Assembly: GCA_017395215.1 (NCBI GenBank)
Contig: JAFPVW010000196.1
Coordinates: 1-40,190, forward strand
Origin: Prevotella sp.
GTDB taxonomy: Bacteria > Bacteroidota > Bacteroidia > Bacteroidales > Bacteroidaceae
Direction of reading: 5' to 3'
Length of the DNA stretch: 40,190 nt
Shown: positions 1 through 35,302 of the stretch, one piece after another
Layout: each line of letters starts with the position of its first letter
Numbering within the stretch: the first letter of the stretch is position 1
Program-made: the position numbers and the translations under genes
Notes under the pieces: generated by a model
Told to the model about the DNA's origin: nothing
The model's database searches: none
Seen by the model: the letters and a program-made list of their open reading frames with translations, nothing else

Positions 1-895
1 AAATTGAAAATTGAGAATTGGTTTGCTCAACATGTTCCGCGCCTCGGACATCGGGGAAATACGGCATTTCCAGGCAGTCGGGCATGTGGCATGTGAAGCT
101 CACGTCGAGGATGGCGGTGCGGATTCCCTTGTCCTCGACGATGTCGACGACGTGGCTGACCAGCGGTCCCGTCTGCCAGGCGAAGGCGCTGCCGGGCTCG
201 AGGATAATCTTCAGCCAGGGATAGCGGTCGTGCAATCCTTTTAATACACGTATAAGGAGTTCCACGTCGTAGTCCTTGCGTGTCATCAGGTGGCCGCCAC
301 CCAGGTTGAGCCACTTCAGCTGTTTGAACCAGGCTGAGAACTTGTCTTCAATGTGAGCGAGTGTCCGTTCCAGCACGTCGGCACCACTCTCGCAGTGGCA
401 GTGGCAATGGAAACCCTCGATGTCCTTCGGTAATAACTCAGGCAGCTTGTCGGCTGTCACGCCGAACCGTGTACCGGGAGCGCAGGGGTTGTATAGGGCT
501 GTCCCCACTTCCGAATACTCGGGATTCACCCGCAGACCGATACTGACATCCTCTCCGACCCGTCGGTGCAGATGCTCATACTGCGATAGCGAGTTAAACG
601 TCAAGTGGCTGGAGCAGTTTACTATCTCGTCGAATTCCCAGTCCGTGTAAGCCGGTGAATAGGTGTGCGCTTTCTGCCCGAACTCCTCATAGGCCAGCCT
701 TGCCTCGCTCAGCGAGCTGGCCGTTGTCGACCGAATGTATTCTCTGAAGATGGGGAATGTCTTCCATAGTGCAAATGCCTTGAAAGCCAAGATGATTTCC
801 ACATCGGCACGGCGCGCCACATCGGCTATCAGCCGTAGGTTTCGCCTGAGCCGCTCCTCCTCTATGACGTAAATAGGGGTGTTCTTCTCTGACAT
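1..895 (-). CDS. nspC: Carboxynorspermidine decarboxylase, 3' end outside window
   Basis: PLP-dependent decarboxylase that converts carboxynorspermidine or carboxyspermidine to norspermidine or spermidine, the last step of the alternative polyamine route; cytoplasmic. About 298 residues are visible, with no stop before the window edge; the family is about 370-390 aa. The ATG at 895 gives MSEKNTPIYVIEEERLRRNL, a normal NspC start. The PLP lysine is expected at about K39 in AFKAFALWK. Other family landmarks are FNSLSQY, LNPCAPGTRFG-like (here YNPCAPGTRFG), EGFHCHCHCESGAD, LNLGGGH and ILEPGSAFAWQTG. The last visible residues, GAEHVEQTNSQFSI, fall in a variable loop and are partly encoded by a 7-nt tandem repeat at 2-20. 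The gene lies 26 nt after the DUF4861 gene on the same strand and may be co-transcribed with it. The partner carboxynorspermidine dehydrogenase is not in the window. Identification is by motif recall. Confidence 0.9.
   Translation of the reverse strand, partial: MSEKNTPIYVIEEERLRRNLRLIADVARRADVEIILAFKAFALWKTFPIFREYIRSTTASSLSEARLAYEEFGQKAHTYSPAYTDWEFDEIVNCSSHLTFNSLSQYEHLHRRVGEDVSIGLRVNPEYSEVGTALYNPCAPGTRFGVTADKLPELLPKDIEGFHCHCHCESGADVLERTLAHIEDKFSAWFKQLKWLNLGGGHLMTRKDYDVELLIRVLKGLHDRYPWLKIILEPGSAFAWQTGPLVSHVVDIVEDKGIRTAILDVSFTCHMPDCLEMPYFPDVRGAEHVEQTNSQFSI
2..20. repeat. Heptamer tandem repeat at window edge (site A)
   Basis: Units aattgaa, aattgag and a partial aattg follow each other at exact 7-nt spacing. 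The array lies inside the nspC reading frame and may continue beyond the window edge. It belongs to the period-7 repeats seen elsewhere in this window. Confidence 0.7.
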
Positions 896-921
896 GTGTC
901 CGCTTTTAATCTGGTAAAATT

Positions 922-2133
922 TTAAAACTCCACTTTGACGGGTTGCTCCACTTCGCGCTTCCAGGCTTTCAGGTAGTCGAACCACTCGCGGGCGGTGTGG
1001 TAGCCGAACTCCTCGTTGGCCGAGGTGTAGTTAATCTTATAGCTTAGGCGGCTGCCGTCGGTCTTGACGACAAAGGCGTAATTGTCCTTGTTGGCTGCCT
1101 CTTCGCTGGCAATGTGCTTGTTGGGGATGCAGATGGCGAGGCCGACAGTCTCGCGGTTCCACTTCACGGTGTCGGTCGAGGGGTAATCGGTGCCCCAGCA
1201 GGCGCGCAGTCCTTTGTGGTCGCTGAACTCCTCGGAGTCTTTCACGTTGATGATGCCCGTCGAGAAGCGGTAGCCGCTGACATCCTTGTTGAACAGCACG
1301 TCGACATCGGTGTCGCGGTGGCCGGCGTACTGGGTGTAGCGGAGAGTCATGTTAATGGGAGATTTAGCTGCATCGGCTTTCCATCCTCGGTCAATAACCT
1401 CGACGATGGTGCGGAGCGGACCGTAGCTGATGATGCGCTGTGTGCGCGAGCGGACGGGGTCGATCATGGTGGGTTCCTTGCCGTCCCAGCCGCGGAAGGC
1501 ACCAAGGCCGAAGGTGTTGCCTACCCAAAGCACGTCGTCGCCGTAGCCCTGCGTCTTCTGCTCGTCGGATGTGTAGAACTGAGTCTCTTTCAGCTCCAGC
1601 CGCTTCTTGAACTTCCCATAGAGGTCGAGCGTCTGCCGCTTGTCAAAGTATATGCGGATGCCGTTGAGCTCGCTTTCGAAGTCGACGCCGTGGTGGTGCT
1701 GCAGGTTATAGGAGTTGGCGCAGTCGCCCCGTGCCGTAATACTCTCGATGTAGTTGTCGTGGCGGTTCTTTTCCTTCACCTTGTCGTTGCGCATCAGCAT
1801 CTCGGCATAGACGCGGGCGGGGTAGGGGCGTGGCTCGCCCTGCTGATAGAGCTGGACGGTGTACTGCTTCTTTTCCTTACCCGCGAGGTCGGCCAGGAAG
1901 CAGAGCTCGTCGAACTGCTCGTCCTGATCGAGGTCATCCAGCTGGCAGGCAATCTCCTTGCCGTCGGAGGTGACCAGAGCCGAGCGGATGTCGCCGTATT
2001 TAGCTAAGGGAATGACCACCGGCTGGTCCGTGCGGTTGGTATTCACAGGATTGCTTACGCTTACGGTGATTGTCTGTTGCGCCATCGTTGTGGTGCTGAC
2101 GGCCAAAAGGGCCCAGAATAAACTTCGTTTCAT
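922..2133 (-). CDS. DUF4861 family secreted protein
   Basis: A 403-aa exported protein that resembles the DUF4861 family, found in Bacteroidota polysaccharide-degradation loci and often near pectin or uronate enzymes. Its biochemical activity is not something I can state. I place the start at ATG 2133, which gives the signal peptide MKRSLFWALLAVSTTTMAQ; an upstream in-frame TTG at 2160 lies against the -7 promoter box and is unlikely. The mature part starts with a beta-rich segment (NPVNTNRTDQPVVIPL) and continues with the GVDFESELNGIRIYFDKRQ region and a C-terminal AREWFDYLKAW segment. No membrane segment follows the signal, so periplasmic or surface location is likely. It is transcribed away from the GldB-like gene, and nspC follows 26 nt later. 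Confidence 0.75.
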   Translation of the reverse strand: MKRSLFWALLAVSTTTMAQQTITVSVSNPVNTNRTDQPVVIPLAKYGDIRSALVTSDGKEIACQLDDLDQDEQFDELCFLADLAGKEKKQYTVQLYQQGEPRPYPARVYAEMLMRNDKVKEKNRHDNYIESITARGDCANSYNLQHHHGVDFESELNGIRIYFDKRQTLDLYGKFKKRLELKETQFYTSDEQKTQGYGDDVLWVGNTFGLGAFRGWDGKEPTMIDPVRSRTQRIISYGPLRTIVEVIDRGWKADAAKSPINMTLRYTQYAGHRDTDVDVLFNKDVSGYRFSTGIINVKDSEEFSDHKGLRACWGTDYPSTDTVKWNRETVGLAICIPNKHIASEEAANKDNYAFVVKTDGSRLSYKINYTSANEEFGYHTAREWFDYLKAWKREVEQPVKVEF

Positions 2134-2157
2134 GTCTTTTGATTGTTTAGTAGAGCG

Positions 2158-2165
2158 CAAAAGTA
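2158..2165 (-). promoter_or_regulatory. Bacteroidota -7 box for DUF4861 gene
   Basis: On the minus strand the box reads TACTTTTG, matching TAnnTTTG, 25 nt upstream of ATG 2133. No good TTTG -33 element sits 19-21 nt further upstream, so this is a partial promoter match. Confidence 0.5.
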
Positions 2166-2204
2166 ATTATTTTCAAACTATTTTTTATCTTTTTTAGGTT
2201 AAAA

Positions 2205-2236
2205 TTTGGATTTTACAATATTATTTAGTAATTTTG
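2205..2236 (+). promoter_or_regulatory. Bacteroidota promoter for GldB-like gene
   Basis: TTTG at 2205-2208 is followed by exactly 20 nt and then TAATTTTG at 2229-2236, a full match to the sigma-ABfr consensus. It supports ATG 2276 as the start and rules out the in-frame TTG at 2234, which lies inside the -7 box. Confidence 0.8.
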
Positions 2237-2275
2237 CAGTCGAATTTAAACAAAATTCACTCTATAACGACGAAA

Positions 2276-3112
2276 ATGCGAAGGATATACATACTGCTCT
2301 TGGCCGTGATGCTTGTCTGTATTGGCTGCGAATGGCGCCTCACTTCTTCTGACGACAAGCAGGAAGTGCGGGTTGCCGTCGAGCGGTACGACCGTATCCA
2401 GAGCCTGTATCTGACGACGGGCGACTTCTCGGCCCTGCAGCAGATGAATACCGTCTACCCACAGCAGACGCGAACGCTGATAGAGGACGTCTTGAAGATT
2501 GGTCATGTGAACGACTCGGAGATTAACCTGAAGTTCCTGGCTTTTTATCAGGACTCCACCCTTCAGACCTTGCTTGCCGAGGCTGAGCAGCAATATGCCA
2601 ACATGGACGACATCAACCAGGAACTCACCGATGCCTTTGCACGTCTGCAGGAGATGATTCCCGATATTGAGGTTCCGCTGATATATGCCCAGATAGGTTC
2701 GCTCGACCAGAGCGTCATCGTCGGCAATGGCCTGTTGGGCATTTCGCTCGACAAGTATCTGGGCAAGGACTATCCGCTCTATCTGCGCGAGGACTATGGC
2801 TATACCGCTGAACAGCGCCAGGTAATGACTCGTCAGAACATCGTGCCCGACTGCATCGGCTTCTATCTTCTGAGTCTCTTCCCGATGCCTTCAGAGTATG
2901 CGCAGAGCCAGCTTGGGCGCGACATGCACATCGGGAAAGTGCAGTGGGTCGTCAACCAGGCTATGAACGAGACAGTGTTCAATACGCTCTACACCCGTAA
3001 TGTGGGCCATTACATGAAGAGCCATCCTGATGTGACGACCACTGAGTTGCTTCAGAAGAACTATTTCATCAATTCAGCTGAGATTTCAACTGGCCTTACA
3101 GACTCAGACTGA
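2276..3112 (+). CDS. GldB-like lipoprotein
   Basis: A 278-aa lipoprotein that resembles the GldB family (gliding-motility-associated lipoprotein, also kept in many non-gliding Bacteroidota). The N terminus MRRIYILLLAVMLVCIGC is a type II signal peptide with lipobox CIGC; the lipidated Cys is residue 18. Family-like segments include the helical RYDRIQSLYL region, PDIEVPLIYAQIGSLDQSVI, LLGISLDKYLGKDYPLY and the C-terminal KVQWVVNQAMNETVFN. ATG 2276 follows a full promoter at the right distance. The gene converges with valS, whose stop lies 11 nt downstream, and there is no room for a long terminator. No other gliding gene is nearby, so the motility role is doubtful here; GldB relatives are thought to act in the envelope. 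Confidence 0.75.
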   Translation: MRRIYILLLAVMLVCIGCEWRLTSSDDKQEVRVAVERYDRIQSLYLTTGDFSALQQMNTVYPQQTRTLIEDVLKIGHVNDSEINLKFLAFYQDSTLQTLLAEAEQQYANMDDINQELTDAFARLQEMIPDIEVPLIYAQIGSLDQSVIVGNGLLGISLDKYLGKDYPLYLREDYGYTAEQRQVMTRQNIVPDCIGFYLLSLFPMPSEYAQSQLGRDMHIGKVQWVVNQAMNETVFNTLYTRNVGHYMKSHPDVTTTELLQKNYFINSAEISTGLTDSD

Positions 3113-3123
3113 GCCGTTGCCGC

Positions 3124-5835
3124 CTACTTACCTTGTAGGGCGGCAATCGACTCCTTCAGTGAGGCGATCTTCTCCTCGGCATCACTCTGCTTCTTGCGCT
3201 CCATAGCCACGACGGCTTCGGGGGCATTCTGCACGAAGCGCTCGTTCGACAGTTTCTTCTTCACGCCGGCCAGGAATCCTTCCAGGTGCTGCAGTTGGGT
3301 TTCCATCTTCTGAATCTCGGCTTCCACGTCAATGAGGTTGCCTAAGGGCACGGCAAACTCGTCGGTGCCTACCATGAAGGTCGAGGCGGTGGCGTCCTTC
3401 TCGCTGACAATGCTAACAGCCGTTGTGCCCGACATCTTCATAATTGCGGCATTGTACTGCTCGTAGTCATTTTTGCCTACCACCTGTAGTTCCAGCGGCT
3501 CCTTCTGTGCGATGTTCTTCGACGAGCGTACGGTGCGCACACCCGAGACAATCTGCTTCACCTGCTCAATGGCGCTGGTCAGCAGCTCGTCTTCGGCAGT
3601 GGGAGCCGGCAGCTCCAGCTTGTCGCGCATGATGCTCTCACCGGGCTTGCGGTCGTACAGGTGCTGCCACAGTTCCTCGGTGATGAAGGGCATGAAGGGG
3701 TGGAGCATCTTCAGTAGTGTCTCAAAGAATTTGAGCGTCTTGTCGTAGGTCTGTCGGTCGATGGGCTGAGCCTCGCCGTTGATGTAGGCAGGCTTCACCA
3801 TCTCCAGGTACCAGCTCGAGAACTCGTCCCAGAACAGTTTGTAGACGGCCATGAGGGCTTCCGAGATGCGGTACTTCTTGAACAGGTCGTCGACTTCGGC
3901 ATTCGTCTGGCGCAGCTTAGCCTCAAACCACTTCGTGGCAATCTTGCCAGCCTCCGACTGCTCGATGTCGGCCACCTTCCAGCCCTTGACCAGACGGAAG
4001 GCATTCCAGATCTTATTGTTGAAGTTGCGCCCCTGCTCGCAGAGAGCCTCGTCGAAGAGAATGTCGTTGCCTGCGGGTGCAGAGAGCATCATGCCCATGC
4101 GCACGCCGTCGGCACCGAACTTCTCAATGAGCTCGATGGGGTCGGGGCTGTTGCCTAATGACTTCGACATCTTGCGGCCCAGCTTGTCGCGGACGATACC
4201 GGTGAAGTAGACATTCTTGAAGGGGAACGTGCCCATATACTCCTCGCCGGCCATGATCATGCGTGCCACCCAGAAGAAGATGATGTCGGGGGCGGTCACC
4301 AGGTCTGAGGTGGGGTAGTAGTAGCTGATTTCCTCGTTGCCGGGATTGCGGATGCCGTCGAACAGCGAGACGGGCCACAGCCAGCTTGAGAACCATGTGT
4401 CGAGGGCATCCTCGTCCTGACGCAGGTCAGCGTCCGTCATTGCGGGATTCTTCTGCTGGGCCAGCTTCAGGGCTTCCTCGCGGGTTTCGGCGACGACAAA
4501 GTCGTTGTCGCCCTCACCATAGTAGTAGGCGGGAATGCGGTGGCCCCACCAGAGCTGGCGGCTGATGCACCAGTCCTGAATGTTCTCGAGCCAGTTCTTA
4601 TAGGTGTTGACGTACTTCTGCGGATAGAAATGCATCTCGCCGTTGAGCACGGGCGGCAGGGCGATGTCGGCGAAGTGCTTCATCGACAGGAACCACTGCA
4701 TCGACAGGCGCGGCTCGATGGCTGTGTCTGGGTTGCGCTCCGAGTAGCCCACCTTATTAGTATAGTCCTCGATTTTCTCCATCAGTCCGGCCTCCTTCAA
4801 GTCTTTGGCAATCTGCTTGCGGCAGTCCATGCGGTCCATGCCGACGTAGATGGGCGACTGCTCCGAGATGGTGCCGTCGGGGTTGAAGATGTCGATGGTC
4901 TCAAGGTTATGCGTCTTGCCCAGCATGTAGTCGTTGGTGTCGTGGGCGGGCGTCACCTTCAGACAGCCCGTACCGAACTCGATATCCACGTAGCGGTCCT
5001 CGATGACGGGGATGACGCGGCCCACCAGAGGTACGATGACCTTACGGCCCTTCAGCCACTGGTTCTTCGGGTCTTTCGGGTTGATACACATGGCGGTATC
5101 GCCCATGATGGTTTCGGGACGGGTGGTGGCGACGACGGCGTAGTAGCCCTTCTCATCCTTGTGGATGACGTCGCCCTCGCTGGCTGCGATGGTATCGCTG
5201 CATACGGAACCGTCGGCGTTGGCTACGTAGTATTTCAGGTGGAAGAGGTGGCTCTGCTCCTCCTTGTAGATGACTTCCTCGGTGGAAAGGGCGGTGAGGG
5301 CCTTGGGATCCCAGTTCACCATGCGCAGGCCGCGGTAGATGAGGCCCTTGTTGTAGAGGTCGACGAAGACCTTGATGACGCTCTCCGAGCGCGTCTCGTC
5401 CATCGTGAATGCCGTGCGGTCCCAGTCGCAGGAGGCACCGAGCCGACGCAGCTGCTTCAGGATGATGCCGCCGTGCTCATGGGTCCAGTCCCAGGCGTGC
5501 TCCAGGAACTGGTCGCGCGTCAGGTCGTGCTTCTTGATGCCCTGCTCGGCCAGCTTCTTCACTACCTTGGCCTCGGTAGCAATCGAGGCGTGGTCGGTGC
5601 CCGGCACCCAGCAGGCGTTCTTGCCCTCCATGCGTGCGCGGCGCACCAGGATGTCCTGGATGGTGTTGTTCAGCATGTGTCCCATGTGGAGCACGCCAGT
5701 CACGTTGGGCGGCGGTATGACGATGGTGTAAGGCTCACGGCCGTCGGGTTTGCTACTGAAGAGTTTGTTGTCCAGCCAGTACTGGTACCATTTCGATTCG
5801 ACCTCTTTCGGGTCGTATTTGCTTGCTATTTCCAT
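3124..5835 (-). CDS. valS: Valyl-tRNA synthetase
   Basis: Class I aminoacyl-tRNA synthetase charging tRNA-Val with valine; cytoplasmic and essential. The protein is 903 aa, in the normal range. The HIGH signature is HMGH at residues 50-53 within [16 protein letters not shown], and the KMSKS loop is at residues 555-559 ([10 protein letters not shown]). The editing domain lies between them ([20 protein letters not shown]), followed by the anticodon-binding domain with [10 protein letters not shown]. The C-terminal coiled-coil tRNA-binding arm has the usual [16 protein letters not shown] and [18 protein letters not shown] segments. ATG 5835 is chosen because [20 protein letters not shown] is the usual start. 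A TTG 45 nt upstream would lie close to the promoter. The gene is divergent from mazG. Confidence 0.98.
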
Positions 5836-5857
5836 ATACCTATTTATAAATTGGGTG

Positions 5858-5865
5858 CAAAGGTA
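5858..5865 (-). promoter_or_regulatory. Bacteroidota -7 box for valS
   Basis: The minus strand reads TACCTTTG 22 nt upstream of the valS ATG. A weak -33 match (GTTG) is found about 19 nt further upstream. It is divergent from the mazG promoter. Confidence 0.6.
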
Positions 5866-5904
5866 CAACTTTTCTGCCAAAACTCAACAAGATTTTGCCA
5901 AAAA

Positions 5905-5936
5905 GTTGGCTGTTTGGAAAATAATGCTTACCTTTG
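5905..5936 (+). promoter_or_regulatory. Bacteroidota promoter for mazG
   Basis: GTTG at 5905-5908 (one mismatch to TTTG) is followed by 20 nt and TACCTTTG at 5929-5936. The -7 box overlaps the alternative ATG at 5924, so that upstream start is unlikely. Confidence 0.6.
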
Positions 5937-5968
5937 CGGTTGAAAAACAGAATAACGACGCAAGAAAA

Positions 5969-6841
5969 ATGCATACACGAGAAGAACAGATGAAGGCTTT
6001 CGGGCGCCTGCTCGACGTGCTCGACCAGTTGCGCGAGAAGTGTCCGTGGGACAAGAAGCAGACCAACGAAAGCCTGCGGCCCAACACGATTGAGGAGGTG
6101 TACGAACTGTGCGATGCCCTGATGCGCGACGACCGGAAGAACATCTGCAAGGAGCTGGGCGACGTACTGATGCACGTGATGTTCTATGCCAAGATTGGCT
6201 CCGAGACGGGCGACTTCGACATGGCCGACGTGTGCCAGATGCAAGCCGACAAGCTGATATTCCGCCATCCCCACATCTACCATCCATCGCAGGTGGGCGC
6301 CGAGGAGCCCAGGCCGCTGCCCTACGTCCCCGAGGAGGCCGCTGCCGACGAGTCACGTCGCGAGTTTTCGGATGCCAAGACCTCGGAGCAGGTGCTGCAG
6401 AACTGGGAGCAGATCAAACTGAAGGAGAAGGACGGCAACAAGACCGTGCTCTCGGGCGTTCCCGCCTCGCTGCCCTCGCTCATCAAGGCCTACCGCATAC
6501 AGGACAAGGCCCGTAACGTAGGCTTCGACTGGCAAAAGAAGGAGGATGTCTGGCAGAAGGTCCACGAGGAGCTGGCTGAGCTGGAGGCCGAGCTTGCCCG
6601 CGACGACAAGGAGCGCTCTACCAATGAGCTTGGCGACTTCCTCTTCTCGGTCATCAATGCGGCCCGGCTTTACAAGCTGAATCCCGAGAATGCGCTGGAG
6701 CGTACCAACCAGAAGTTTATTTCGCGCTTCGGCTACATCGAGCAGCACAGCATCCGCGCTGGTAAGCCACTGACGGAGATGTCGTTAGAGGAAATGGATG
6801 AACTTTGGAATGAAGCAAAGTGCAAGGAGCAGGAAGACTAA
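5969..6841 (+). CDS. mazG: MazG nucleoside triphosphate pyrophosphohydrolase
   Basis: Hydrolyses (d)NTPs to NMP and pyrophosphate; a house-cleaning enzyme in the cytoplasm. The 290-aa protein has two MazG domains. The first (about residues 25-125) has CPWDKKQTNESLRPNTIEE and KELGDVLMHVMFYAKIG. The second (about 180-275) has GFDWQKKEDVWQKVHEELAE and STNELGDFLFSVINAARL. The acidic metal-binding EE/E clusters are present in both. The C-terminal RTNQKFISRFGYIE is typical. ATG 5969 (MHTREEQMKAFGRLL) suits the family and the promoter. A lipocalin-like lipoprotein gene starts 16 nt after the stop, and rnz follows, so the three may form one transcript. Confidence 0.95.
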   Translation: MHTREEQMKAFGRLLDVLDQLREKCPWDKKQTNESLRPNTIEEVYELCDALMRDDRKNICKELGDVLMHVMFYAKIGSETGDFDMADVCQMQADKLIFRHPHIYHPSQVGAEEPRPLPYVPEEAAADESRREFSDAKTSEQVLQNWEQIKLKEKDGNKTVLSGVPASLPSLIKAYRIQDKARNVGFDWQKKEDVWQKVHEELAELEAELARDDKERSTNELGDFLFSVINAARLYKLNPENALERTNQKFISRFGYIEQHSIRAGKPLTEMSLEEMDELWNEAKCKEQED

Positions 6842-6857
6842 AAAAGATGACAATACT

Positions 6858-7448: not shown

Positions 7449-7452
7449 CGCT

Positions 7453-8367: not shown

Positions 8368-8400
8368 AAAGGGCAAATATTGCATTTTTTCGTGAAAAAA

Positions 8401-8432: not shown

Positions 8433-8455
8433 CACAGGAAAAAATATATGCATAT

Positions 8456-17028: not shown

Positions 17029-17877
17029 ATGCTGAGTGTTGAAGAATTAGTCGACAGGCTCATCGACCTGTCGTTTGCCGAAGACATCGGTGATGGCGAC
17101 CATACCACCCTCTGCTGCATTCCCGAGGATGCTATGGGCAAGAGTCATCTGCTCATCAAGGAAGATGGTATACTGGCAGGTGTGGAGATAGCCAAGGAGG
17201 TGTTCCGCCGTTTCGACCCTACGATGCAGGTGGAGGTGCTGATGGGCGACGGAAGTCGGGTGAAGAAGGGCGACATCGCCATGATCGTCACGGGCAAGGT
17301 GCGCTCTCTGCTTCAGACCGAGCGCCTGATGCTGAACATCATGCAGCGCATGAGCGGCATTGCCACCATGACCGATAAGTACGTGAAGCGTCTGGAGGGA
17401 ACGGGCACCCGCGTGCTCGACACCCGCAAGACCACTCCCGGCATGCGCATGCTCGAGAAGCAGGCCGTGAAGATTGGCGGCGGCTGCAACCACCGTATCG
17501 GTCTCTTCGACATGATTCTGCTGAAGGACAACCACGTCGACTTTGCCGGCGGCATTGTCAATGCCATCGACCGCTGCCACCAGTACCTGAAGGAAAAGGG
17601 CCTCGACCTGAAGATTGAGATCGAGGTACGCTCGTTCGACGAACTGCAGCAGGTGCTCGACCACGGCGGCGTTGACCGCATCATGCTCGACAACTTCTCC
17701 GTGCCCGACACGAAGAAGGCCGTCGACATTATCAACCACCGCTTCGAGACCGAGTCGTCGGGCGGCATCACCTTCGACACCATCCGCGACTATGCCGAGC
17801 AGGGTGTCGACTTCATCAGCGTCGGCGCTCTGACGCACAGCGTCAAGGGCCTTGATATGTCGTTTAAGGCATGTTAA
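17029..17877 (+). CDS. nadC: Quinolinate phosphoribosyltransferase
   Basis: Forms nicotinate mononucleotide from quinolinate and PRPP in de novo NAD synthesis; cytoplasmic. The 282-aa protein is the usual length. Typical segments are AEDIGDGDHTT (about residues 17-27), RTEL-like QTERLMLNIMQRMSGIATMT, LDTRKTTPGMRMLEKQAVK, GGGCNHRIGLFDMILLKDNH, EIEVRSFDEL and MLDNF. ATG 17029 follows the barrel gene after 6 nt, and the M23 peptidase ATG lies 7 nt inside the nadC end, so the genes are tightly packed. No nadA or nadB is in the window. Confidence 0.97.
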   Translation: MLSVEELVDRLIDLSFAEDIGDGDHTTLCCIPEDAMGKSHLLIKEDGILAGVEIAKEVFRRFDPTMQVEVLMGDGSRVKKGDIAMIVTGKVRSLLQTERLMLNIMQRMSGIATMTDKYVKRLEGTGTRVLDTRKTTPGMRMLEKQAVKIGGGCNHRIGLFDMILLKDNHVDFAGGIVNAIDRCHQYLKEKGLDLKIEIEVRSFDELQQVLDHGGVDRIMLDNFSVPDTKKAVDIINHRFETESSGGITFDTIRDYAEQGVDFISVGALTHSVKGLDMSFKAC

Positions 17878-19574
17878 GGAAAATTGGTGGAGGGTGGAAG
17901 GTTAAAGGTGGAGGGAGAATACTCTGCCGACTGTTTTGCGCGTTGTTTTTCGTGCTGGCACTATCCTCCTTTAACCCTCAACCCTCCACCCTCCACCAGT
18001 TCAAGAGCCCCATCGACTTTGAAATCTCGCTGGCGGGGAACTTTGGTGAACCGCGGCCGAACCATTTTCACGGCGGACTCGACATTCGTACCGAGGGCGT
18101 CGAGGGCAAGCATATCTACGCTATTGGCGACGGCTATGTGTCGCGCATCACCGTCGGAAAGGAGGGCTTCGGCAATGCCGTCTACATCACCCATCCCACG
18201 GGCCAGACGTCAGTCTACTGTCACCTGAAGTCGTTCTCGCCCCGTATCAGGCGTGCCCTCCGTAAGTATCAGTACAGTCACGGCACCAACGAGGCCGATG
18301 CCCGTCTGACGCCGCTCGACGTACCCGTGAGCCAAGGGCAGTTCATTGCCCTCAGCGGCAACACTGGTGCCTCGACAGCTCCCCACCTGCACCTCGAAAT
18401 CCACGACACGCGCACGTGGAACATGCTCGACCCCTACCAGTTTCTGAATGACTTTATCCAGGACACCGTTCCCCCTCAGATTCACGACATTATGGCCATT
18501 CCACAGGGCGGAACGTTCAACGGCAGCCCTTCACCCTTCACCCTTCACCCTTCCCTTGATCACACTGCCTGGGGCCGTGTCGGTTTCGCTGTCTGGGCCG
18601 ACGACTATATGCAAGGCTCCTACAATCACTACGGCATTCACCAGACGCAGCTCTTCGTCGATGGCGAACAAGTGTTTCAGAGCACAGTCGACGACATCCC
18701 CGTCAGCATGAACCGCATGGTCAACTCCTGGGGCTACTACGACCATTGGCTCCACACCCGCCGCTGGTACATGAAATCCTTTATCGAACCAGGCAACACG
18801 CTGCCCTTCCTCACTGCCGACAGCAACTGCGGCATCGTCGACTTCAACGAGGAGCGCGACTACCACCTCGAATACGTCCTCCGCGACTACAAGGGCAACG
18901 AAGTCCGCCACGCCTTCACCGTTCATGCCCAGCCTTCTTCGTATGCTGTGACTGTGTCGCAGCCCGATATCCTCCGCTGGAACCGCACCAACAGCATCAG
19001 CCGTCCTGGCGTTCAGCTGATTGTCCCCTACGGTCTCGTTGCTGCCGATACGCCAGTCAGCCCCATCATCACGCGCAATCCCGACAGTTGGTCGGACGTC
19101 TGTCAGTTTTCGTCCACATCGCTGCCCTTGATGCGCGATGCCTGGCTGAGCATCTGTATTCGCCCGCCTCATCATGGTGATTATAACCTGACAAAGCTCT
19201 ATATCATCGACGAGCGCGGCCGCAGCACAGGTGGGATCTATCATAAAGACGGTTGGGTAACAGGCCGTATCCGCGAGTTGGGCAGTTGCTATCAGCTGGC
19301 CTACGATGACCAGCCTCCCAGCGTCGCCCCGATCACCCTGACGGGCGATGTCTTGAGACTGAATGTCACTGATGCGGGAAGTGGTGTCTCCACATGGAAG
19401 GCTACTGTCGACGGCCGTTTCATAGTCTTCGACGCTATTGAGAAGACCACCACCTTCGCTTGCGAACTGCGTGAGTCGTGGCTTCGTCGAACGGGAACTT
19501 CCCATCGCCTGTGCTTCGAAGTGTTCGATAATTGTCTGAATAGACAAACCTACGAGACAGCCTTCGACTATTGA
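17871..19574 (+). CDS. M23 family metallopeptidase with repeat-bearing N terminus
   Basis: A 567-aa exported zinc endopeptidase of the LytM/M23 type, probably acting on peptidoglycan. The catalytic domain is at about residues 45-190. Ligands are in NHFHGGLDI (His and Asp) and in HLHLEIHD (HxH), with HPTGQTSVYCHLKS between. The remaining two thirds is beta-rich without a domain I recognise. The N terminus is odd: the hydrophobic core (LFCALFFVLALSSF) is flanked on both sides by heptamer repeats in opposite orientation, coding GGGWKVKGGG before it and SSFNPQPSTLH after it. A third heptamer array codes SPSPFTLHPSLDH at residues 220-232 in a loop. ATG 17871 overlaps nadC by 7 nt; no other ATG precedes the signal core. 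Confidence 0.88.
   Translation: MLRKIGGGWKVKGGGRILCRLFCALFFVLALSSFNPQPSTLHQFKSPIDFEISLAGNFGEPRPNHFHGGLDIRTEGVEGKHIYAIGDGYVSRITVGKEGFGNAVYITHPTGQTSVYCHLKSFSPRIRRALRKYQYSHGTNEADARLTPLDVPVSQGQFIALSGNTGASTAPHLHLEIHDTRTWNMLDPYQFLNDFIQDTVPPQIHDIMAIPQGGTFNGSPSPFTLHPSLDHTAWGRVGFAVWADDYMQGSYNHYGIHQTQLFVDGEQVFQSTVDDIPVSMNRMVNSWGYYDHWLHTRRWYMKSFIEPGNTLPFLTADSNCGIVDFNEERDYHLEYVLRDYKGNEVRHAFTVHAQPSSYAVTVSQPDILRWNRTNSISRPGVQLIVPYGLVAADTPVSPIITRNPDSWSDVCQFSSTSLPLMRDAWLSICIRPPHHGDYNLTKLYIIDERGRSTGGIYHKDGWVTGRIRELGSCYQLAYDDQPPSVAPITLTGDVLRLNVTDAGSGVSTWKATVDGRFIVFDAIEKTTTFACELRESWLRRTGTSHRLCFEVFDNCLNRQTYETAFDY
17886..17913 (+). repeat. Heptamer repeat (site B) in M23 gene
   Basis: Four 7-nt units (ggtggag, ggtggaa, ggttaaa, ggtggag) lie upstream of the signal-peptide core. 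It is inverted relative to site C. Confidence 0.85.
17968..17997 (-). repeat. Heptamer repeat (site C), inverted copy of site B
   Basis: Read on the minus strand the units are ggtggag, ggtggag, ggttgag and ggttaaa, then gg. Units match site B in reverse orientation, so sites B and C form inverted repeats around a 54-nt centre. Confidence 0.85.
18527..18554. repeat. Heptamer repeat (site D) in M23 gene
   Basis: Unit cccttca occurs three times and cccttcc once at exact 7-nt spacing, inside the reading frame. Confidence 0.85.
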
Positions 19575-26697: not shown

Positions 26698-26717
26698 AGT
26701 TAGGGTAGGGGGCGAAC

Positions 26718-27989: not shown

Positions 27990-28029
27990 AACTTTGTTTT
28001 ACTGTTTATAAAGATGTGTTGTCCTTCAA

Positions 28030-28173: not shown

Positions 28174-28180
28174 AATCTTG

Positions 28181-28189
28181 TCCTCCTTC
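28181..28189 (-). promoter_or_regulatory. Strong Shine-Dalgarno before the 47-aa gene
   Basis: Minus strand reads GAAGGAGGA; the AGGAGG core ends 8 nt before ATG 28173. Other genes in this window show no such site, apart from the octamer repeat at 35226-35302. Confidence 0.8.
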
Positions 28190-28194
28190 TCTAA

Positions 28195-30786: not shown

Positions 30787-30847
30787 TTTTGTATACTTTT
30801 TAGTTAATAATATGGTTATTCAGAACAATAATCATTGTAATACCGTG

Positions 30848-30879
30848 CAAAGGTAATCATTTCTGCTGAAACCACCAAA
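30848..30879 (-). promoter_or_regulatory. Bacteroidota promoter for 863-aa gene
   Basis: On the minus strand, TTTG (30879-30876), 20 nt, TACCTTTG (30855-30848): full consensus. It leaves a 5' leader of about 55 nt before ATG 30786. Confidence 0.8.
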
Positions 30880-30933
30880 CATTTTAATCTTTTTCACACA
30901 CGTATGCGCGTATAGTGAATAGGCAATGGTGGA

Positions 30934-31275
30934 AAAGAACCGACACTTCCTACACCTGTTCTGATTTTCAGCAGGTTACGGACCGTTAACCTACACCTGA
31001 ACCAACACTTGAACCTACACCTAAGAAAGAAGCGCCGGAGGTTTCGACGTTCCGCCGTTCTGAATATTCATACAGTTTGTGGCGCGGCGATTTTGGTTTG
31101 TAAACCGCCGCCTTTTGTCCGAAACCCGGTGCCTTTTTCACGAAACCTGCCGCCTTTTGCCGAAAATCTGTCGGCTGGCCGTCATTTTCTGTCGATTCTG
31201 CTTAAATATACATTTCGGCGAATAAATATTCAGTTGTGGCGCAGGTGTAGGAAGTGTAGGAAGTGTGGGTTCTTT
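30934..31275. mobile_element. 342-bp inverted-repeat element, MITE-like, no gene
   Basis: The left arm (30934-30958) pairs with the right arm (31242-31275). The perfect core is caggtgtaggaagtgt at 31242-31257 against its complement at 30943-30958. The outer parts are aaagaacc and ggttcttt. The right arm has one extra 9-nt unit (aggaagtgt). Inside are more copies of cctacacct and a 21-nt tandem repeat. No real coding sequence is visible: an open frame across it on the plus strand only reflects the repeats and the antisense of the next gene. The rest of 30787-31303 is the promoter above and AT-rich spacer. Confidence 0.55.
31086..31169. repeat. 21-nt degenerate tandem repeat in the element
   Basis: Units of 21 nt start at 31107, 31128 and 31149, with a weaker one at 31086. 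The best-kept core is gccgccttttg followed by cgaaa. Confidence 0.65.
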
Positions 31276-31303
31276 TTTTATTTCCCTATCATTCGCGCGC
31301 GCA

Positions 31304-32032
31304 CTAAATCAAATTCCGGGGCATCAGCTCCTGGGCGCGGCGGAAGTCGTCGGGGGTATCAAGCTCATAACTGAAGAAGTCGGTGGTGTCGACCACGCGG
31401 AAGGTGTGGCCCTGAGGGATGAGGCGCTCGAAGGCACGCTCGTAGAAGATGTCGATGAGCCCCTCACGCTCAATCATCAGGTCGAGTTCGGCAGCAAGCG
31501 CCTCGCCATAGGCAGGCGTGATGTGCTCGATGCCCACACTCTCGCCCATCGCATCGGCGGGGTTGCAGGTCTTCGATATCTCGGTGATGCGGCATTCGGC
31601 ATCGACGACGACCTTCATCTCCTCCTCGCCAAGCTCGTGGCGGTTGACCGCGAGGGCAGCCTCGGGCTGTGAGGCAATGGCGCTGACGGCGGCCGGGTCG
31701 CAGAGGATGTCGCTGTCCATGAGCAGCACCTCCTGACCACGAACGTGCCTCATGGCGAGCCACAGCGAGTAGATGTTGTTGTTGTGCTCGTAGTCGGCGT
31801 TGTGTAGGAAGTGAAAAGTGAAATGTGAGAAGTGAGAGGTGAGGAAGTCGCGTATCTGGTCGGCGCAGTAGCCGGTGACGACGACGAACTCCGTGATGCC
31901 GGTCTGGTGCATGGCATCAACGGTGCGCTCCAGGAGAGTACGCTCGCCTACCTTGAGCAGGCACTTGGGTTTGTGGTCTGTGAGGGGGCGGAGGCGCTTG
32001 GCCATTCCCGCTGCGAGTATTACACCTGTCAT
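31304..32032 (-). CDS. LicC-like sugar/choline-phosphate nucleotidyltransferase
   Basis: A 242-aa nucleotidyltransferase of the NTP_transferase fold; relatives activate phosphocholine, inositol phosphate or sugars with CTP. The nucleotide-binding start is MTGVILAAGMAKRLRPLTDH with KPKCLLKVG (residues 1-29). NADYEHNNNIYSLWLA and LLMDSDILCDP (about 77-110) carry the metal/nucleotide aspartates, and YELDTPDDFRRAQEL closes it. Residues 63-74 (FLTSHFSHFTFH) are coded by a heptamer repeat. It is the last gene of an operon with a flippase-like protein, CDP-alcohol transferase and PLP enzyme, so a CDP-alcohol product is the most natural guess. Specificity is inferred. Confidence 0.85.
   Translation of the reverse strand: MTGVILAAGMAKRLRPLTDHKPKCLLKVGERTLLERTVDAMHQTGITEFVVVTGYCADQIRDFLTSHFSHFTFHFLHNADYEHNNNIYSLWLAMRHVRGQEVLLMDSDILCDPAAVSAIASQPEAALAVNRHELGEEEMKVVVDAECRITEISKTCNPADAMGESVGIEHITPAYGEALAAELDLMIEREGLIDIFYERAFERLIPQGHTFRVVDTTDFFSYELDTPDDFRRAQELMPRNLI
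31811..31845. repeat. Heptamer repeat (site E) inside nucleotidyltransferase gene
   Basis: Five exact-spaced 7-nt units: gtgaaaa, gtgaaat, gtgagaa, gtgagag, gtgagga. It is read in frame through a loop of the protein. Confidence 0.88.
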
Positions 32033-32034
32033 GG

Positions 32035-32063
32035 GATTTTCGATTTACGGATTTTCGATTTAC
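32035..32063. repeat. Heptamer repeat (site F) at gene junction
   Basis: Units of the gattttc/gatttac type arranged 7-7-1-7-7 nt. It fills nearly all of the 34-nt gap between the flippase stop and the nucleotidyltransferase ATG. Confidence 0.88.
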
Positions 32064-32066
32064 TGT

Positions 32067-33110
32067 TTATTTGTCGGGCAGCCGCATGATGAGCATGCCG
32101 ATGGCAATCCAGATGATCTCGCGCACGCGGCAGATGATGCTGACGAAGATGCCGAGGGCGGCTGAGAGGCCGAGGGCAGCGATGGACAGCACGAAACCAC
32201 CCTCCTGAACGCCGAGCTGCATGGGCAGGATTCCGATGAGGTTGGCAAAGAGCGTGGTGAACGAGACGATGAGGATGCTGTGCAGATAAGTGATGAAGAT
32301 GCCCGTGAAGCCCCCGCCGTTGTCGATGCCGAAGAGCAGTAGCATGAACAGCACCTCGCTGCTCTGCACGATGCGCGAGAGATACTCCAGTATCAGGCTC
32401 TTGTAGAAGGCGGCCTTGTCCTCAGCGTGGAGGGCAGCTATCTGCTCGTCGATGTTCGTCAGCGTCTCGGCGTGCTTCTCGCGGAAGCGGGTGCTCCAGC
32501 CCTTCAGGCCCGGAATGTGGCCTATCCACCGTAGCGTCTTCACTACCAGTCCGTTGCGGTAGCCCTTGGCAAAGACGTAGAAGGCCACGAGGCAGAACAC
32601 GATGATGATGCCCAGCACGGTGGCGATGGCGGTGTTGATGGGCAGGTCGCCGACGGCAGCCAGCGCCAGGTAGATGAAGATGCTGGTGAACCAGAACCAG
32701 AAGTGGGCGAAGAAGTGCATCATCGCATAGAGGATGACGCTCGACGTGGCGTGCTCGTTGCTGACGTCCTTCGACAGTTCGAGTATGCGGTAGGGCTCGC
32801 CGCCGAGTCCGCCGACGGGTGTGGCGTAGTTCAGCGCATAGCCCGTGACGGTGAGCCGGTAGACGCGCAGGAAGCTGACGTGCTTGCTGGTGCCGCGCGT
32901 CTTGCTGCGGATGATGGTGAACCACGACCAGGCGTTGATGGCGTAGATGAAAATCCAGACGCCGACGATGGGTATGAGCCAGTAGCCGGCGTGGCAGAGG
33001 TGCTGCCACAGCTCGTTGAAACTGACATCGAACGTCAGCAGCATCACCACGCAGGCCAGTATGCCTACGACGAAGAAGAGGTTGTTAAGACGCTGCTTGG
33101 TCCACCGCAT
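32067..33110 (-). CDS. Flippase-like membrane protein (LPG synthase TM family)
   Basis: A 347-aa inner-membrane protein of the lysylphosphatidylglycerol-synthase-TM (UPF0104/AglD-like) family, with about seven or eight hydrophobic helices. The family motif TPVGGLGGEPYR is at about residues 97-108, followed by a long cytoplasmic loop (FREKHAETLTNIDEQIAALH) and then the QLGVQEGGFVLSIAALGLS helix (about 290-308). Such proteins accompany lipid-linked glycan or phospholipid synthesis and may move a lipid across the membrane. It lies between the CDP-alcohol transferase (27-nt gap) and the nucleotidyltransferase (34-nt gap), both gaps filled by heptamer repeats. Substrate unknown. Confidence 0.85.
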   Translation of the reverse strand: MRWTKQRLNNLFFVVGILACVVMLLTFDVSFNELWQHLCHAGYWLIPIVGVWIFIYAINAWSWFTIIRSKTRGTSKHVSFLRVYRLTVTGYALNYATPVGGLGGEPYRILELSKDVSNEHATSSVILYAMMHFFAHFWFWFTSIFIYLALAAVGDLPINTAIATVLGIIIVFCLVAFYVFAKGYRNGLVVKTLRWIGHIPGLKGWSTRFREKHAETLTNIDEQIAALHAEDKAAFYKSLILEYLSRIVQSSEVLFMLLLFGIDNGGGFTGIFITYLHSILIVSFTTLFANLIGILPMQLGVQEGGFVLSIAALGLSAALGIFVSIICRVREIIWIAIGMLIMRLPDK

Positions 33111-33112
33111 AT

Positions 33113-33141
33113 GATTGACGATTTACGGATTTCCGATTTAC
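33113..33141. repeat. Heptamer repeat (site G) at gene junction
   Basis: Units gattgac, gatttac, a single g, gatttcc, gatttac: again 7-7-1-7-7 nt. The TAA stop of the CDP-alcohol transferase (33138-33140) lies inside the last unit. Confidence 0.88.
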
Positions 33142-34118
33142 AATTTGTCGGCAAGTTGCTTGCAGAACGACTCGTGGCTGCGGTTGACATACTTCCAGAG
33201 CAGGCCCATCGCGACAATCTCGAACACGAAGTGGCAGACGGGCACGTCGAGCAGGCAGAACAGGAAGAGCCACGACTCGCGGAAATTGAACGTCAGCAGA
33301 CCGTTCCAGAAGATGACGGGCAGCGACTTCTGCCGGAACTCCTCGCGAAACTCCTGCGGAATGTTGTCGGTAGAGCCGTACTTCTCGCGCAGCTTCGAGA
33401 GCAGGCGCTGGAACTGCGGCGTTATCTTCTCCTGCTTCCGCGTGTAGTCGATGTACGACTTCTGGAACAGCCGCTCGTAGGCCGGCGCATGTGGCGGCAT
33501 GTGGTCGTAGATTTCCTGCTGCTGGACGGAGTTGTCGAGCTCGCTGCCCTTCTCGCCCTTCAGGAAGAAGAGGTGCACCTGAATGTAGTAGTCGGCCAGG
33601 CGCTGCTGACCAGCCATGCCCCAAAAGCCCGAGATGAAGCCAAGCACGGTGACGACGGCGGTAGCTATCAGGGCGTTCTCGGGTGTGTCGTCAATGCCGA
33701 GCCACCCGAACTCTATGGTGTGGTGCTGATAGAAGCGCCATACCAGAATGGCGTAGATGGGCACGAACCACGTGAAGCCCGCCACCCCGTCGAGTATGCG
33801 GCCTATGCGGCTCTTCTTGCCCGTCATGCGTGCCAGCTGGCCGTCGGTGCAGTCGAGTATGTCGGCCACCATGAGCAGCACGATACCGATGATGTTGTAG
33901 ATGAGTCCCATCGTGCCGCCGTAGTAGAAGCTGGCGCAGCCGAAGAAGACGGCGCTGGCAGCGCCGATAATCATCGACCAGATGGTCACCGTGTTGGGGT
34001 GAATGTCGAACTTGGCAAAGAAGACAGCGCAGTAGTAGCAGAAGGGTCGTATGACGTGCAGGTCGAGCCAATCTTCTGTGTCGGTTGACTTCAGCGTTGC
34101 TCTGTATTTTTCGTTCAT
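33138..34118 (-). CDS. CDP-alcohol phosphotransferase with altered motif
   Basis: A 326-aa integral membrane enzyme of the CDP-alcohol phosphatidyltransferase family, which swaps CMP for an alcohol acceptor to make a phosphodiester lipid. The signature is DCTDGQLARMTGKKSRIGRI followed by LDGVAG (about residues 85-114). The canonical DxxDGxxAR(8x)GxxxDxxxD is complete except that the last Asp is Gly 114; that Asp is usually the catalytic base. A long hydrophilic segment (about 185-265; EIYDHMPPHAPAYERLFQKS) separates the N- and C-terminal helices, longer than in simple members. The gene sits in the operon between the PLP enzyme and the flippase-like protein. Acceptor and headgroup are unknown. 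Confidence 0.85.
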   Translation of the reverse strand: MNEKYRATLKSTDTEDWLDLHVIRPFCYYCAVFFAKFDIHPNTVTIWSMIIGAASAVFFGCASFYYGGTMGLIYNIIGIVLLMVADILDCTDGQLARMTGKKSRIGRILDGVAGFTWFVPIYAILVWRFYQHHTIEFGWLGIDDTPENALIATAVVTVLGFISGFWGMAGQQRLADYYIQVHLFFLKGEKGSELDNSVQQQEIYDHMPPHAPAYERLFQKSYIDYTRKQEKITPQFQRLLSKLREKYGSTDNIPQEFREEFRQKSLPVIFWNGLLTFNFRESWLFLFCLLDVPVCHFVFEIVAMGLLWKYVNRSHESFCKQLADKL

Positions 34119-34123
34119 CAGGC

Positions 34124-34159
34124 TATTTTCTATTTACGGATTATCGATTGACGATTGAC
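34124..34159. repeat. Heptamer repeat (site H) at gene junction
   Basis: Units tattttc, tatttac, a single g, gattatc, gattgac, gattgac: 7-7-1-7-7-7 nt. It fills the gap and touches the TAG stop of the PLP enzyme (34159-34161). Confidence 0.88.
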
Positions 34160-35199
34160 TACTTGACTTCCTGGTAAACGCGCTTGATGGTGTCGACGAC
34201 CGTCTGTGTCTGCTCGCGGCGGCCCAAGGTGATGCGCAGGCACGACTCAAGTCCGGGGTCGCCCATGAACTTGATCTTGTAGTCCTGAATCTTCAGGGCC
34301 TCCATCAGCCGCTCCTTCATCTCTAACGGGTACTTGATGAGTATGAAGTTGGCCACCGACTTGTAGACCTTGAAGCCGGGCAGTCCGCCGAGCTCCTTCT
34401 TGTAGAGCTGGCGGCCCCATTCCATCTCGTCGGCCACGTGGCGGTAGTGCTCGTCGCTCTCTAAAGCAGCGATTGCAACAGCCTCAGCAAAGCGGTTGAA
34501 TCCCAGGTACTTATTCGAGTAGCTGAGGAACTGGTCGTGCCCTTTTCCGATGAAGCCGAAGCCCGTGCGCAGACCGGGCAGACCGTAGAACTTTGAGAGC
34601 GTTCGCGAGATGATGAGGTTGTTGTACTTGTTCACCAGCGGAGCGATGTAGTCGGTGTCGGTGGTGATGAAGCTGGCGTAGGCCTCGTCGACGAGCACCA
34701 TCGTGTCGCTGGGAATATTCTCCATGATGCGGCCAATCTCCTCGCTGGTCAGCGAGTTGCCCGTCGGGTTGTTGGGCGATGCCAGCAGCAGCATGCGGGG
34801 GTGAATGCGGTTGGTGTACTCAATGACCTCGCCGACGTTGTAGGCGAAGGTGTCGTCCTGCTCGTAGAGGGGGTACATCTCGAACGTGCCGCCGCACTCG
34901 CTGGCCACCTTATTATAATACCACCACGAGAACTGGGGTATGAGAATCGTCTTGTTGTCGCCCTTCATCAGGAAGTAGTGTATGGCGTTCTTCAGGATTT
35001 CTTCACCGCCGTAGGCCAGGAGCACCTGTTCCTCGGGTACGCCGTAGATTTCGCTGACGCGGACGCTGATGACGCTCTTCTTGCCCTGATCGTAGATGCG
35101 GGTATAGAAGCACAGCTCCTTCGGGTCGAAATTCTTTACTGCGTCAAGCACTTTCTGGCTTGGCTCAAAGTTAAATTCATTTCTGTCAAGATAGTTCAT
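34159..35199 (-). CDS. HisC-like fold-I PLP enzyme
   Basis: A 346-aa PLP-dependent enzyme of the histidinol-phosphate aminotransferase/CobD group; cytoplasmic. Seen are YGGEEILKNAIHYFL (about residues 68-82), LLLASPNNPTGNSLTSEE (about 140), VLVDEAYASF (about 168), and the PLP lysine in SRTLSKFYGLPGLRTGFGF (about 197-215). The C-terminal region has SVANFILIKYP and CLRITLGRREQ. No other his gene is near, so a histidine role is not supported. CobD-type decarboxylases share this fold and make amino-alcohol phosphates, which would suit the operon. ATG 35199 (MNYLDRNEF) is preferred to an upstream TTG at 35235 at the edge of the octamer repeat. Confidence 0.82.
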   Translation of the reverse strand: MNYLDRNEFNFEPSQKVLDAVKNFDPKELCFYTRIYDQGKKSVISVRVSEIYGVPEEQVLLAYGGEEILKNAIHYFLMKGDNKTILIPQFSWWYYNKVASECGGTFEMYPLYEQDDTFAYNVGEVIEYTNRIHPRMLLLASPNNPTGNSLTSEEIGRIMENIPSDTMVLVDEAYASFITTDTDYIAPLVNKYNNLIISRTLSKFYGLPGLRTGFGFIGKGHDQFLSYSNKYLGFNRFAEAVAIAALESDEHYRHVADEMEWGRQLYKKELGGLPGFKVYKSVANFILIKYPLEMKERLMEALKIQDYKIKFMGDPGLESCLRITLGRREQTQTVVDTIKRVYQEVK

Positions 35200-35225
35200 A
35201 ATATATGTTTTTTCTTTTATTTTCT

Positions 35226-35302
35226 TACTCCTCAACTCCCCATCTCCTCAACTCCTCATCTCCTCATCTCCTCATCTCCTCAACTCCTCATCTCCTCATC
35301 AG
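35226..35302. repeat. Octamer tandem repeat (site I) between two operon genes
   Basis: About nine 8-nt units, catctcct or caactcct, on the plus strand (minus strand aggagatg). It fills the gap between the DUF5686 stop and the PLP-enzyme start. Each minus-strand unit offers an AGGAG and often ATGA. Confidence 0.85.

Follow-up and report, generated by a model that had tools for sequence, protein, structure and literature searches.

We analyzed a 40,190-nt stretch of DNA from the gut bacterium Prevotella sp. (GenBank assembly GCA_017395215.1, contig JAFPVW010000196.1; hereafter the window), which carries short tandem arrays with units of seven to nine nucleotides, some standing alone and some paired as the arms of inverted repeats. 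The source genome (labelled G000) is metagenome-assembled, 85% complete with 5.9% contamination, and comprises 3.6 Mb in 211 contigs, of which the window is contig 149. A sequence-only reading of the window had described eight arrays of period 7 and one of period 8. All nine are present at or within a few bases of the positions it listed (Table 1); exact 7-nt spacing, which it also claimed, fails for the three arrays in the spacers of the 31304-35235 operon, which consist of 7-nt units plus an extra base. For the first of these, Tandem Repeats Finder (TRF) also gives a 15-nt unit (7+8). Nor are the eight period-7 sites all separate, since those at 17886-17913 and 17968-17997 are the two arms of one inverted repeat at the boundary between nadC and a peptidase M23 gene.

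Table 1. Arrays, inverted repeats and associated genes in the window
Feature	Position	Strand	Remarks
Array AAATTGAAAATTGAGAATTG	1..20	+	At the end of window and contig; antisense to the called frame
nadC, host gene left of the hairpin	17029..17877	+	TIGR00078
Left inverted-repeat arm, heptads GGTGGAG/GGTTAAA	17882..17921	+	nadC end / M23 peptidase gene start
Right arm of the nadC/M23 inverted repeat (CCTTTAACCCTCAACCCTCCACC...)	17962..18001	+	Inside the M23 frame; 40 nt between arms
Peptidase M23 gene, holds the right arm and the 18527 array	17943..19574	+	PF01551; start from home-made caller
Single heptad array, TGAAGGG (CCCTTCA on the coding strand)	18527..18553	-	Inside the M23 gene
Inverted-repeat element, arms of 9-12-nt repeats (CCGACACTTCCTACACCTG / CAGGTGTAGGAAGTGTAGG)	30933..31276	.	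About 300 nt between arms; between two minus-strand genes
Operon: nucleotidyltransferase-, HpnL-, CDP-alcohol phosphatidyltransferase- and HisC-like genes	31304..35235	-	Matches below NCBIfam cut-offs; single arrays in spacers
Single heptad array AAGTGAA/AAGTGAG	31809..31843	+	Antisense inside the nucleotidyltransferase-like gene (- strand)
Single array, TAAATCG-type heptads	32035..32063	-	Fills the spacer from stop to start codon
Single array, TAAATCG type	33113..33141	-	Fills the next operon spacer; takes in the upstream stop codon TAA
Single array, TCAATCG/TAAATAG type	34124..34159	-	Third operon spacer
Single octad array (GATGAGGA/GTTGAGGA)	35226..35302	-	Between the aminotransferase-like and the upstream SusC/RagA-like gene

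Arrays were called by a strict test at each lag (match +1, mismatch -2, score at least 10), with local dinucleotide shuffles as the null. In the window this test finds four period-7 arrays (1-20, 17973-17997, 18527-18553 and 31809-31843), against a mean of 0.10 and a maximum of 1 in 30 shuffles. Periods 4, 5, 10 and 11 give none and period 8 gives one; periods 6, 9 and 12 give 2, 4 and 2, as is expected of codons for multiples of three. All four period-7 arrays were called in-gene and are antisense to the gene, so that the coding strand of their unit is free of stop codons. Gene starts were placed by a home-made caller; distances to start codons are accordingly approximate, and some arrays counted as genic are probably leaders. 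An Rfam scan of the window returned no match at the gathering score.

Beyond the window, we examined 80 loci (1.42 Mb) of other Prevotella or Prevotellaceae species, mostly of ruminants and including the rumen strains tc2-28 and tf2-5; they represent one common orthologous region, in which arrays inherited by descent are counted repeatedly. These loci contain 162 arrays of period 7, compared with 1.0 in shuffled sequence. The corresponding counts for periods 8, 9, 5, 10 and 11 are 69, 52, 4, 12 and 26 (shuffled: 2.5, 0, 2.5, 3.5 and 0.5). A 235-kb sample of G000, consisting of the window and 20 contigs not chosen for matches, has 15, 11 and 18 arrays of periods 7, 8 and 9 and four each of periods 10 and 11, with at most 0.6 at any period in shuffles. 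A 626-kb sample of the same genome has 46 (period 7), 19 (8), 40 (9), 1 (5), 7 (10) and 6 (11); half of it comes from contigs chosen for matches to TAAATCG or to the 23S_rRNA_IVP family (PF05635, hereafter IVP), and its array densities are therefore skewed upward. The excess of period 7 over shuffled sequence and over periods such as 5 and 10, which the sequence-only reading had proposed to look for, is thus real. Its view that the period is held at 7 proved too narrow, as the excess beyond the window lies at 7 and 8 and, between genes, also at 9; arrays of periods 8 and 9 are part of one phenomenon with the heptads.

Several simple origins were considered and rejected. The 166 period-7 arrays compared have 86 canonical units, which rules out a single universal unit, and the local dinucleotide shuffles exclude an artefact of composition. 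Ordinary coding repeats do not account for the arrays either: 117 of the 162 in the 80 loci are intergenic, though only about 10% of the DNA lies between genes, and 36 of the 45 in-gene ones have a coding strand without stops (23 with stops on the antisense strand only and 13 without stops, against 8 with sense stops and 1 with both). The same stop-free orientation prevails by 9 to 5 among in-gene period-7 arrays of G000, and in-gene arrays of this period therefore appear to survive where they can be read through; at period 8 the 80 loci show no lean (3 vs 3, of 16 in genes). In gaps between co-directional genes the stop-carrying orientation predominates, by 23 to 2 in G000 (13:1 for period 7 and 10:1 for period 8) and, with periods 7 and 8 pooled, by 71 to 30 in the 80 loci, counting only units with stops on one strand and thus excluding 12 of 37 and 36 of 137 arrays, respectively. 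Arrays also occur in divergent gaps, in convergent gaps and inside genes. By eye, units such as TAAATCG and ACATCGAA show no motif of the Shine-Dalgarno type.

At the nadC/M23 boundary, the two 40-nt arms are 80% complementary, and the hairpin stretch has a predicted folding energy of -62.1 kcal/mol (z -7.6 vs 200 shuffles). Tandem inverted arms are found at this boundary in 4 of 30 loci (the window, L061, L063 and L069), with four different units and no stepwise intermediates between them. Each left arm matches its own right arm with scores of 15-22, compared with 3-12 against the arms of the other species. This suggests that, at this one place, the two arms were established or renewed as a pair on more than one occasion, and the matched arms are the strongest single pointer to an arm-making process and the observation hardest to reconcile with replication slippage.

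Inverted arrays of this kind were also found around genes. Loci L129 and L110 each have a gene of the IVP/four-helix-bundle type with a facing pair of AAGTGAA/AATGAAG arrays around it, and both arrays of the pair end in AATTTGCT(A/T)CCGC. The IVP genes of L129 and L169 match PF05635 above the Pfam cut-off, and the cassettes of L110, L129 and L169 sit between protein genes, not in a 23S rRNA helix. We compared the two flanks of such genes for inverted or direct similarity (score at least 12), with 437 genes of 80-300 aa as controls. Inverted flanks were present in 20 of 27 IVP loci of the genus, compared with only 3 of the 437 controls (Fisher p 2.6e-26); direct similarity was seen in 1 of 27 and 6 of 437. 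In a phylum-wide draw, 12 of 30 IVP loci have inverted and three have direct flanks. The IVP loci, like the GxxExxY loci described below, are best-scoring matches and no random draw. The genus set uses 27 of 32 loci, as L170, L179, L181, L191 and L200 had no usable open reading frame (ORF), although L179 and L181 nonetheless show inverted arrays; in the phylum set, L241 was retained though its ORF call looks wrong.

A second gene family with such arms, GxxExxY (PF13366), came to light through an octad pair in G000 that encloses a gene of this kind. Its flanks are similar in inverted orientation in 19 and in direct orientation in 12 of 26 loci (of 30, with L367, L370, L381 and L384 dropped for lack of the motif and L360 retained although its ORF call looks wrong). 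In G000:C85 (L017:13781-14343), four blocks, each of octads AAAGATTT plus a tail GGCCTTGGAGG, lie on one side of the GxxExxY gene and a single inverted copy lies on the other. The period of the arms largely goes with the cargo gene. The strongest array of a locus has period 7 or 8 in 20 of the 27 genus IVP loci and in 17 of the 30 from the phylum draw (that is, in all 17 with an array); around GxxExxY genes it has period 9 in 13 of 26 loci, period 8 in two, 10 in three and 12 in one, with no array in seven. The octads of the G000 copy are an exception to period 9. Both families are widespread, IVP being matched in 157 of 198 genomes drawn phylum-wide and GxxExxY in 66 of 100 of the genus. Moreover, period-7 arrays are denser in genomes with 6-15 IVP matches (39 in 364 kb) than in those without any (7 in 400 kb; p 0.0014 by a Mann-Whitney test on 9 and 11 genomes).

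G000 itself has three IVP matches, all on contigs other than the window, and the window's hairpins and single arrays carry no IVP gene. The best of the three, in contig C97, is enclosed by inverted octads AGTTGAGG and precedes a gene that was judged by eye to encode an RND-type permease; the octad of the window array at 35226..35302 is close to the octad of these arms. Among 100 genomes of the genus, 12 have any match to the C97 octad; G000 and G009 have the most (54 and 71 matches, counted as overlapping placements, not arrays), and the sampled IVP cassette of each is flanked by this octad. The reversed-pattern control is void here because the octad read backwards is a rotation of itself.

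Ends with a constant tail can be numerous. Of 150 genus genomes, 57 have the end TGAARAATTTGCTNCCGC, in up to 60 copies per genome (G057) and in a single copy in G000; the reversed pattern gave none among the genomes listed. The search pattern requires the last half-unit before the tail, and some stretches were chosen for inverted neighbours, so that the following counts are descriptions, not rates. In the stretches read, a period-7 array lies upstream at 76 of the 84 tail sites, a share to which the design of the search contributes, and 11 pairs stand tail to tail, of which two enclose an IVP-type gene and nine have 21-115 bp between them. Two gene-less copies in G072 (L300 and L301) have 46-bp interiors that closely resemble each other and run in opposite directions. 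In G000, a nonad hairpin TCCTACAC...GTGTAGGA was found at 13 places among those listed (28 matches per strand vs 1 for the reversed pattern). Its nonad is that of the window's element at 30933-31276; such short hairpins are multicopy in G000 and occur twice in L089, and 94 of 100 genus genomes have no match. Like arrays lying near each other in the 80 loci and the G000 sample form 17 inverted and six direct pairs (13 to 6 and 8 to 2 at other thresholds), with L017 alone supplying three of the direct and two of the inverted pairs.

The sequence-only reading had suggested that some process inserts or expands arrays, and had proposed a comparison of orthologous loci. The period-7 excess, together with arrays that are absent or replaced between near relatives, supports such a process; the arrays are not fixed, some being absent or replaced and others kept. 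A relative with comparable flanks was available for 73 of the 166 period-7 arrays. Different units occupy the same spacer in the pairs L118/L100, L102/L106, L159/L167, L119/L113 and L098/L097, in which mean flank identity is about 91-97%. L102 carries a 44-nt array, with a tail, in the spacer from stop to start codon; L111 has no array there. Other arrays are unchanged between close pairs (0 nt difference in L124/L132 and L146/L150), and L097 and L114 keep the resident unit with a length difference of 14 nt. The spacer before the nucleotidyltransferase-like gene holds TAAATCG in the window and ATTATCA-, CATTAAG- and AATTATG-type units in L095, L102 and L108. Before 30 orthologous RND-type permease genes (named by eye), we found one IVP cassette (that of G000), 11 arrays and, at the threshold used, 18 stretches with neither; a motif scan likewise detected no IVP gene before the other 29. 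The 11 arrays have period 7 or 8 and several different units, and they adjoin the start codon. At the spacer orthologous to the IVP cassette of L129 (9184-9683), relatives without the cassette (L101, L104, L110, L115, L124 and L132) have other short arrays by eye, with units centred, for example, on CCTAGG, ACTAGT or TCTAGA, the kind differing by species. At both the L129 and the L110 site, relatives carry a different array and not a clean empty site.

Several single arrays of the window lie in or beside the operon at 31304-35235, which presumably encodes a lipid head-group pathway. The order of its genes varies in part of the 80 loci. Its nucleotidyltransferase-like gene has a loop that varies in length and sequence with the arrays it contains (31809-31843 in the window, and L135, L142 and L161); in L135 the loop has LNSQLST repeats, the three-frame reading of the heptad CTCAACT, and in-gene period-7 arrays become heptapeptide repeats. 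At the place orthologous to the 31809 array, L089 has a decayed period-7 array of equal length. For the array at 32035..32063, the pattern TAAATCGTAAATCG gives 38 one-mismatch matches in G000, compared with one for the reversed pattern (overlapping placements, not arrays). The array at 18527, inside the M23 gene, has the canonical unit AAGGGTG, which accounts for seven of the 45 period-7 arrays in the sampled part of G000.

Taken together, we favor the explanation, which we regard as probable though far from certain, that small inverted-repeat (foldback-type) elements end in these repeats, and that the arrays are such ends, whether in full elements, as single copies or as remnants. A complete element would consist of a short IVP/four-helix-bundle (PF05635) or GxxExxY nuclease-fold (PF13366) gene between two inverted arms of tandem units, mostly of 7-8 nt for IVP and 9 nt for GxxExxY, to which some families add a constant tail on the inner side. 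Forms without a gene would be two-arm hairpins, and lone arms would be common. The window would then contain a gene-less heptad hairpin (nadC/M23), a nonad-armed element, an octad array whose unit is close to the one that ends its genome's own IVP cassette, and single heptad arrays. Copies would move, the single arrays would derive from element ends, and the arms would act as a hairpin, in DNA or RNA, that is recognised or copied. Where arrays are found would afterwards be set by selection, which would keep the stop-carrying orientation between stop and start codons and stop-free arrays inside genes.

A number of observations weigh against this explanation. Among the stretches read, we found no cassette with the TAAATCG unit of three window spacers. 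In 20 stretches, TAAATCG arrays lie in sense orientation just before start codons (by eye), which reads as leader function or as an orientation bias; the spacer arrays of this type in the window may accordingly be leaders, or products of orientation-biased insertion. Only one inverted pair of TAAATCG arrays was met in these stretches (L320), each array being sense to its own divergent gene. Single arrays are common, as 54 of the 76 array-plus-tail sites have no partner in the stretch read, and 13 of the 30 IVP loci of the phylum draw have no array. The in-gene arrays at 18527 and 31811 have not visibly lengthened the protein, and the pair L102/L111, a clean case of presence and absence, shows no evident target-site duplication. 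Period-8 density is unrelated to IVP number (6 in 400 kb with none vs 3 in 364 kb with many), and G101, which is 68% complete, has zero IVP matches yet many arrays. At the nadC/M23 boundary, 26 of 30 loci have no tandem arms, five of them having plain inverted repeats that score 10-14, above their own shuffles, and the DNA between the arms is host coding sequence (the start of the M23 gene), not cargo.

A distinctly less probable variant is that the elements are selfish cassettes which lack a known mover and build fresh ends every time they insert: two matching inverted arrays would be written around the cargo with a period set by the cargo protein, the heptad, octad and nonad arrays of spacers would be footprints, and both arms would have been rewritten together at one and the same site in different species. 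As for the route, a mover based on RNA or reverse transcription is a guess, made because the IVP protein of L169 has a sub-threshold match to bAvd, which we take to be an accessory protein of diversity-generating retroelements.

Replication slippage, by which heptads would arise anywhere, be purged from genes and pile up in spacers, with a length of 7 favored by the polymerase footprint (an idea put forward for the long simple sequence repeats of prokaryotes), seems to us unlikely. It fits the intergenic majority of the arrays and the close pairs that keep their unit with zero or whole-unit change, and in most of the genomes of Mrazek 2007 (as cited in PMC4679880) no long simple repeat is more common than the heptanucleotides. 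Slippage preserves the unit, however, and the unit has been swapped outright in several of the pairs above; it also fails to produce matching arms in inverted orientation on both sides of two kinds of gene, or a tail that recurs unchanged at up to 60 places per genome.

We think marginally less still of the proposal that the arrays as a class exist for a leader or spacer function, either as unstructured A/G-rich leaders that set translation without a Shine-Dalgarno sequence or as spacers with a stop in every frame (7 and 8 not being multiples of 3). The orientation counts in co-directional gaps and the TAAATCG arrays abutting start codons agree with it; Bacteroidetes do without Shine-Dalgarno use (PMC3155529, PMC6847099, PMC9976891, in the parts consulted), and a similar proposal exists for TAACTGA repeats (PMC4679880). 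Against it stand the 18 of 30 permease genes preceded by neither array nor cassette, the arrays in divergent and convergent gaps and inside genes, and the inverted arms and tails that it leaves unexplained. Such a function may well be true of arrays once they are in place. Regulation by an RNA hairpin, in which pairing in the mRNA would hide or process the start region and the arms would co-evolve to stay paired, is improbable: the strong fold, the matched arms of four units at one place and the cutting of the stem of the 23S rRNA intervening sequence by RNase III (PMC4990558) suit it, but tandem arms are missing from most nadC/M23 orthologues, the four units are not linked by stepwise intermediates and a single array has nothing to pair with.

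Returning to the foldback-type elements that we favor, they are most likely related in gene and shape to the 23S rRNA intervening sequences (IVSs). As described in the parts of PMC4990558 consulted, the IVS of Coxiella burnetii has 428 nt and a 28-bp terminal stem that RNase III cuts in vitro, and is termed selfish, its mobility being proposed but unproven. Both kinds of element share the PF05635 family by name (S23p/IVP), a size of about 430-500 bp and terminal inverted repeats that fold into a stem (PMC4990558). In contrast to the IVSs, the cassettes described here lie between protein genes, their arms are tandem arrays of short units that vary by copy and species, and single arms, like hairpins without a gene, are present in multiple copies. 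Four-helix-bundle genes are listed among the strain-unique genes of an Arthrospira (PMC8700078, in part) and in a predicted phage region of Flavobacterium columnare (PMC5524665, in part).

Heptanucleotide excess is known for many prokaryotes (Mrazek 2007, as cited in PMC4679880). TAACTGA heptamers, reported from Beggiatoaceae, Cyanobacteria and a few Bacteroidetes, resemble the present arrays in being heptads, mostly upstream of starts in BOGUAY, sense, strain-specific and few in genes (PMC4679880, in the sections compared); the forward orientation near start codons is seen here too, in the gap orientation counts and, by eye, in the TAAATCG arrays. They have a single fixed unit, whereas many units are found here, together with inverted pairs, tails and cassette genes, of which the sections compared make no mention, and TAACTGA is the consensus unit of none of the 45 period-7 arrays in the G000 sample. 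The elements of Geobacter metallireducens likewise form families of 4-5 tandem heptads between and inside genes, with mostly paired sites, and one heptad class is drawn as a loop that switches strands; they were read as global regulator sites or regulatory RNA, and a link to IVP or GxxExxY is absent from the parts of that paper compared (PMC2700814). Among the matches listed in a search of open-access titles and the beginnings of abstracts (subscription journals being outside its scope), none ties heptad-type arrays to IVP or GxxExxY genes.

The foldback elements of Drosophila have arms built of short tandem repeats. REPINs and other miniature inverted-repeat transposable elements (MITEs) are, in the parts of the reports compared, similarly multicopy and small, with inverted arms and gene-less forms (PMC3116915, PMC6382973). 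Unlike all of these, the arm unit of the present elements varies by site and its period goes with the cargo gene.

Heptad arrays have been noted since at least 2007 and, in the parts of the reports consulted, ascribed to polymerase slippage or to regulator sites (PMC4679880, PMC2700814). If the explanation favored here is true, their link to IVP and GxxExxY genes would turn them into a testable class of mobile elements and would give both proteins a context. The rule that the period follows the cargo and the matched rewriting of both arms would offer direct tests of the mechanism. The link would also help to account for the large differences that close relatives among these Bacteroidota show in their spacers and in some protein ends.

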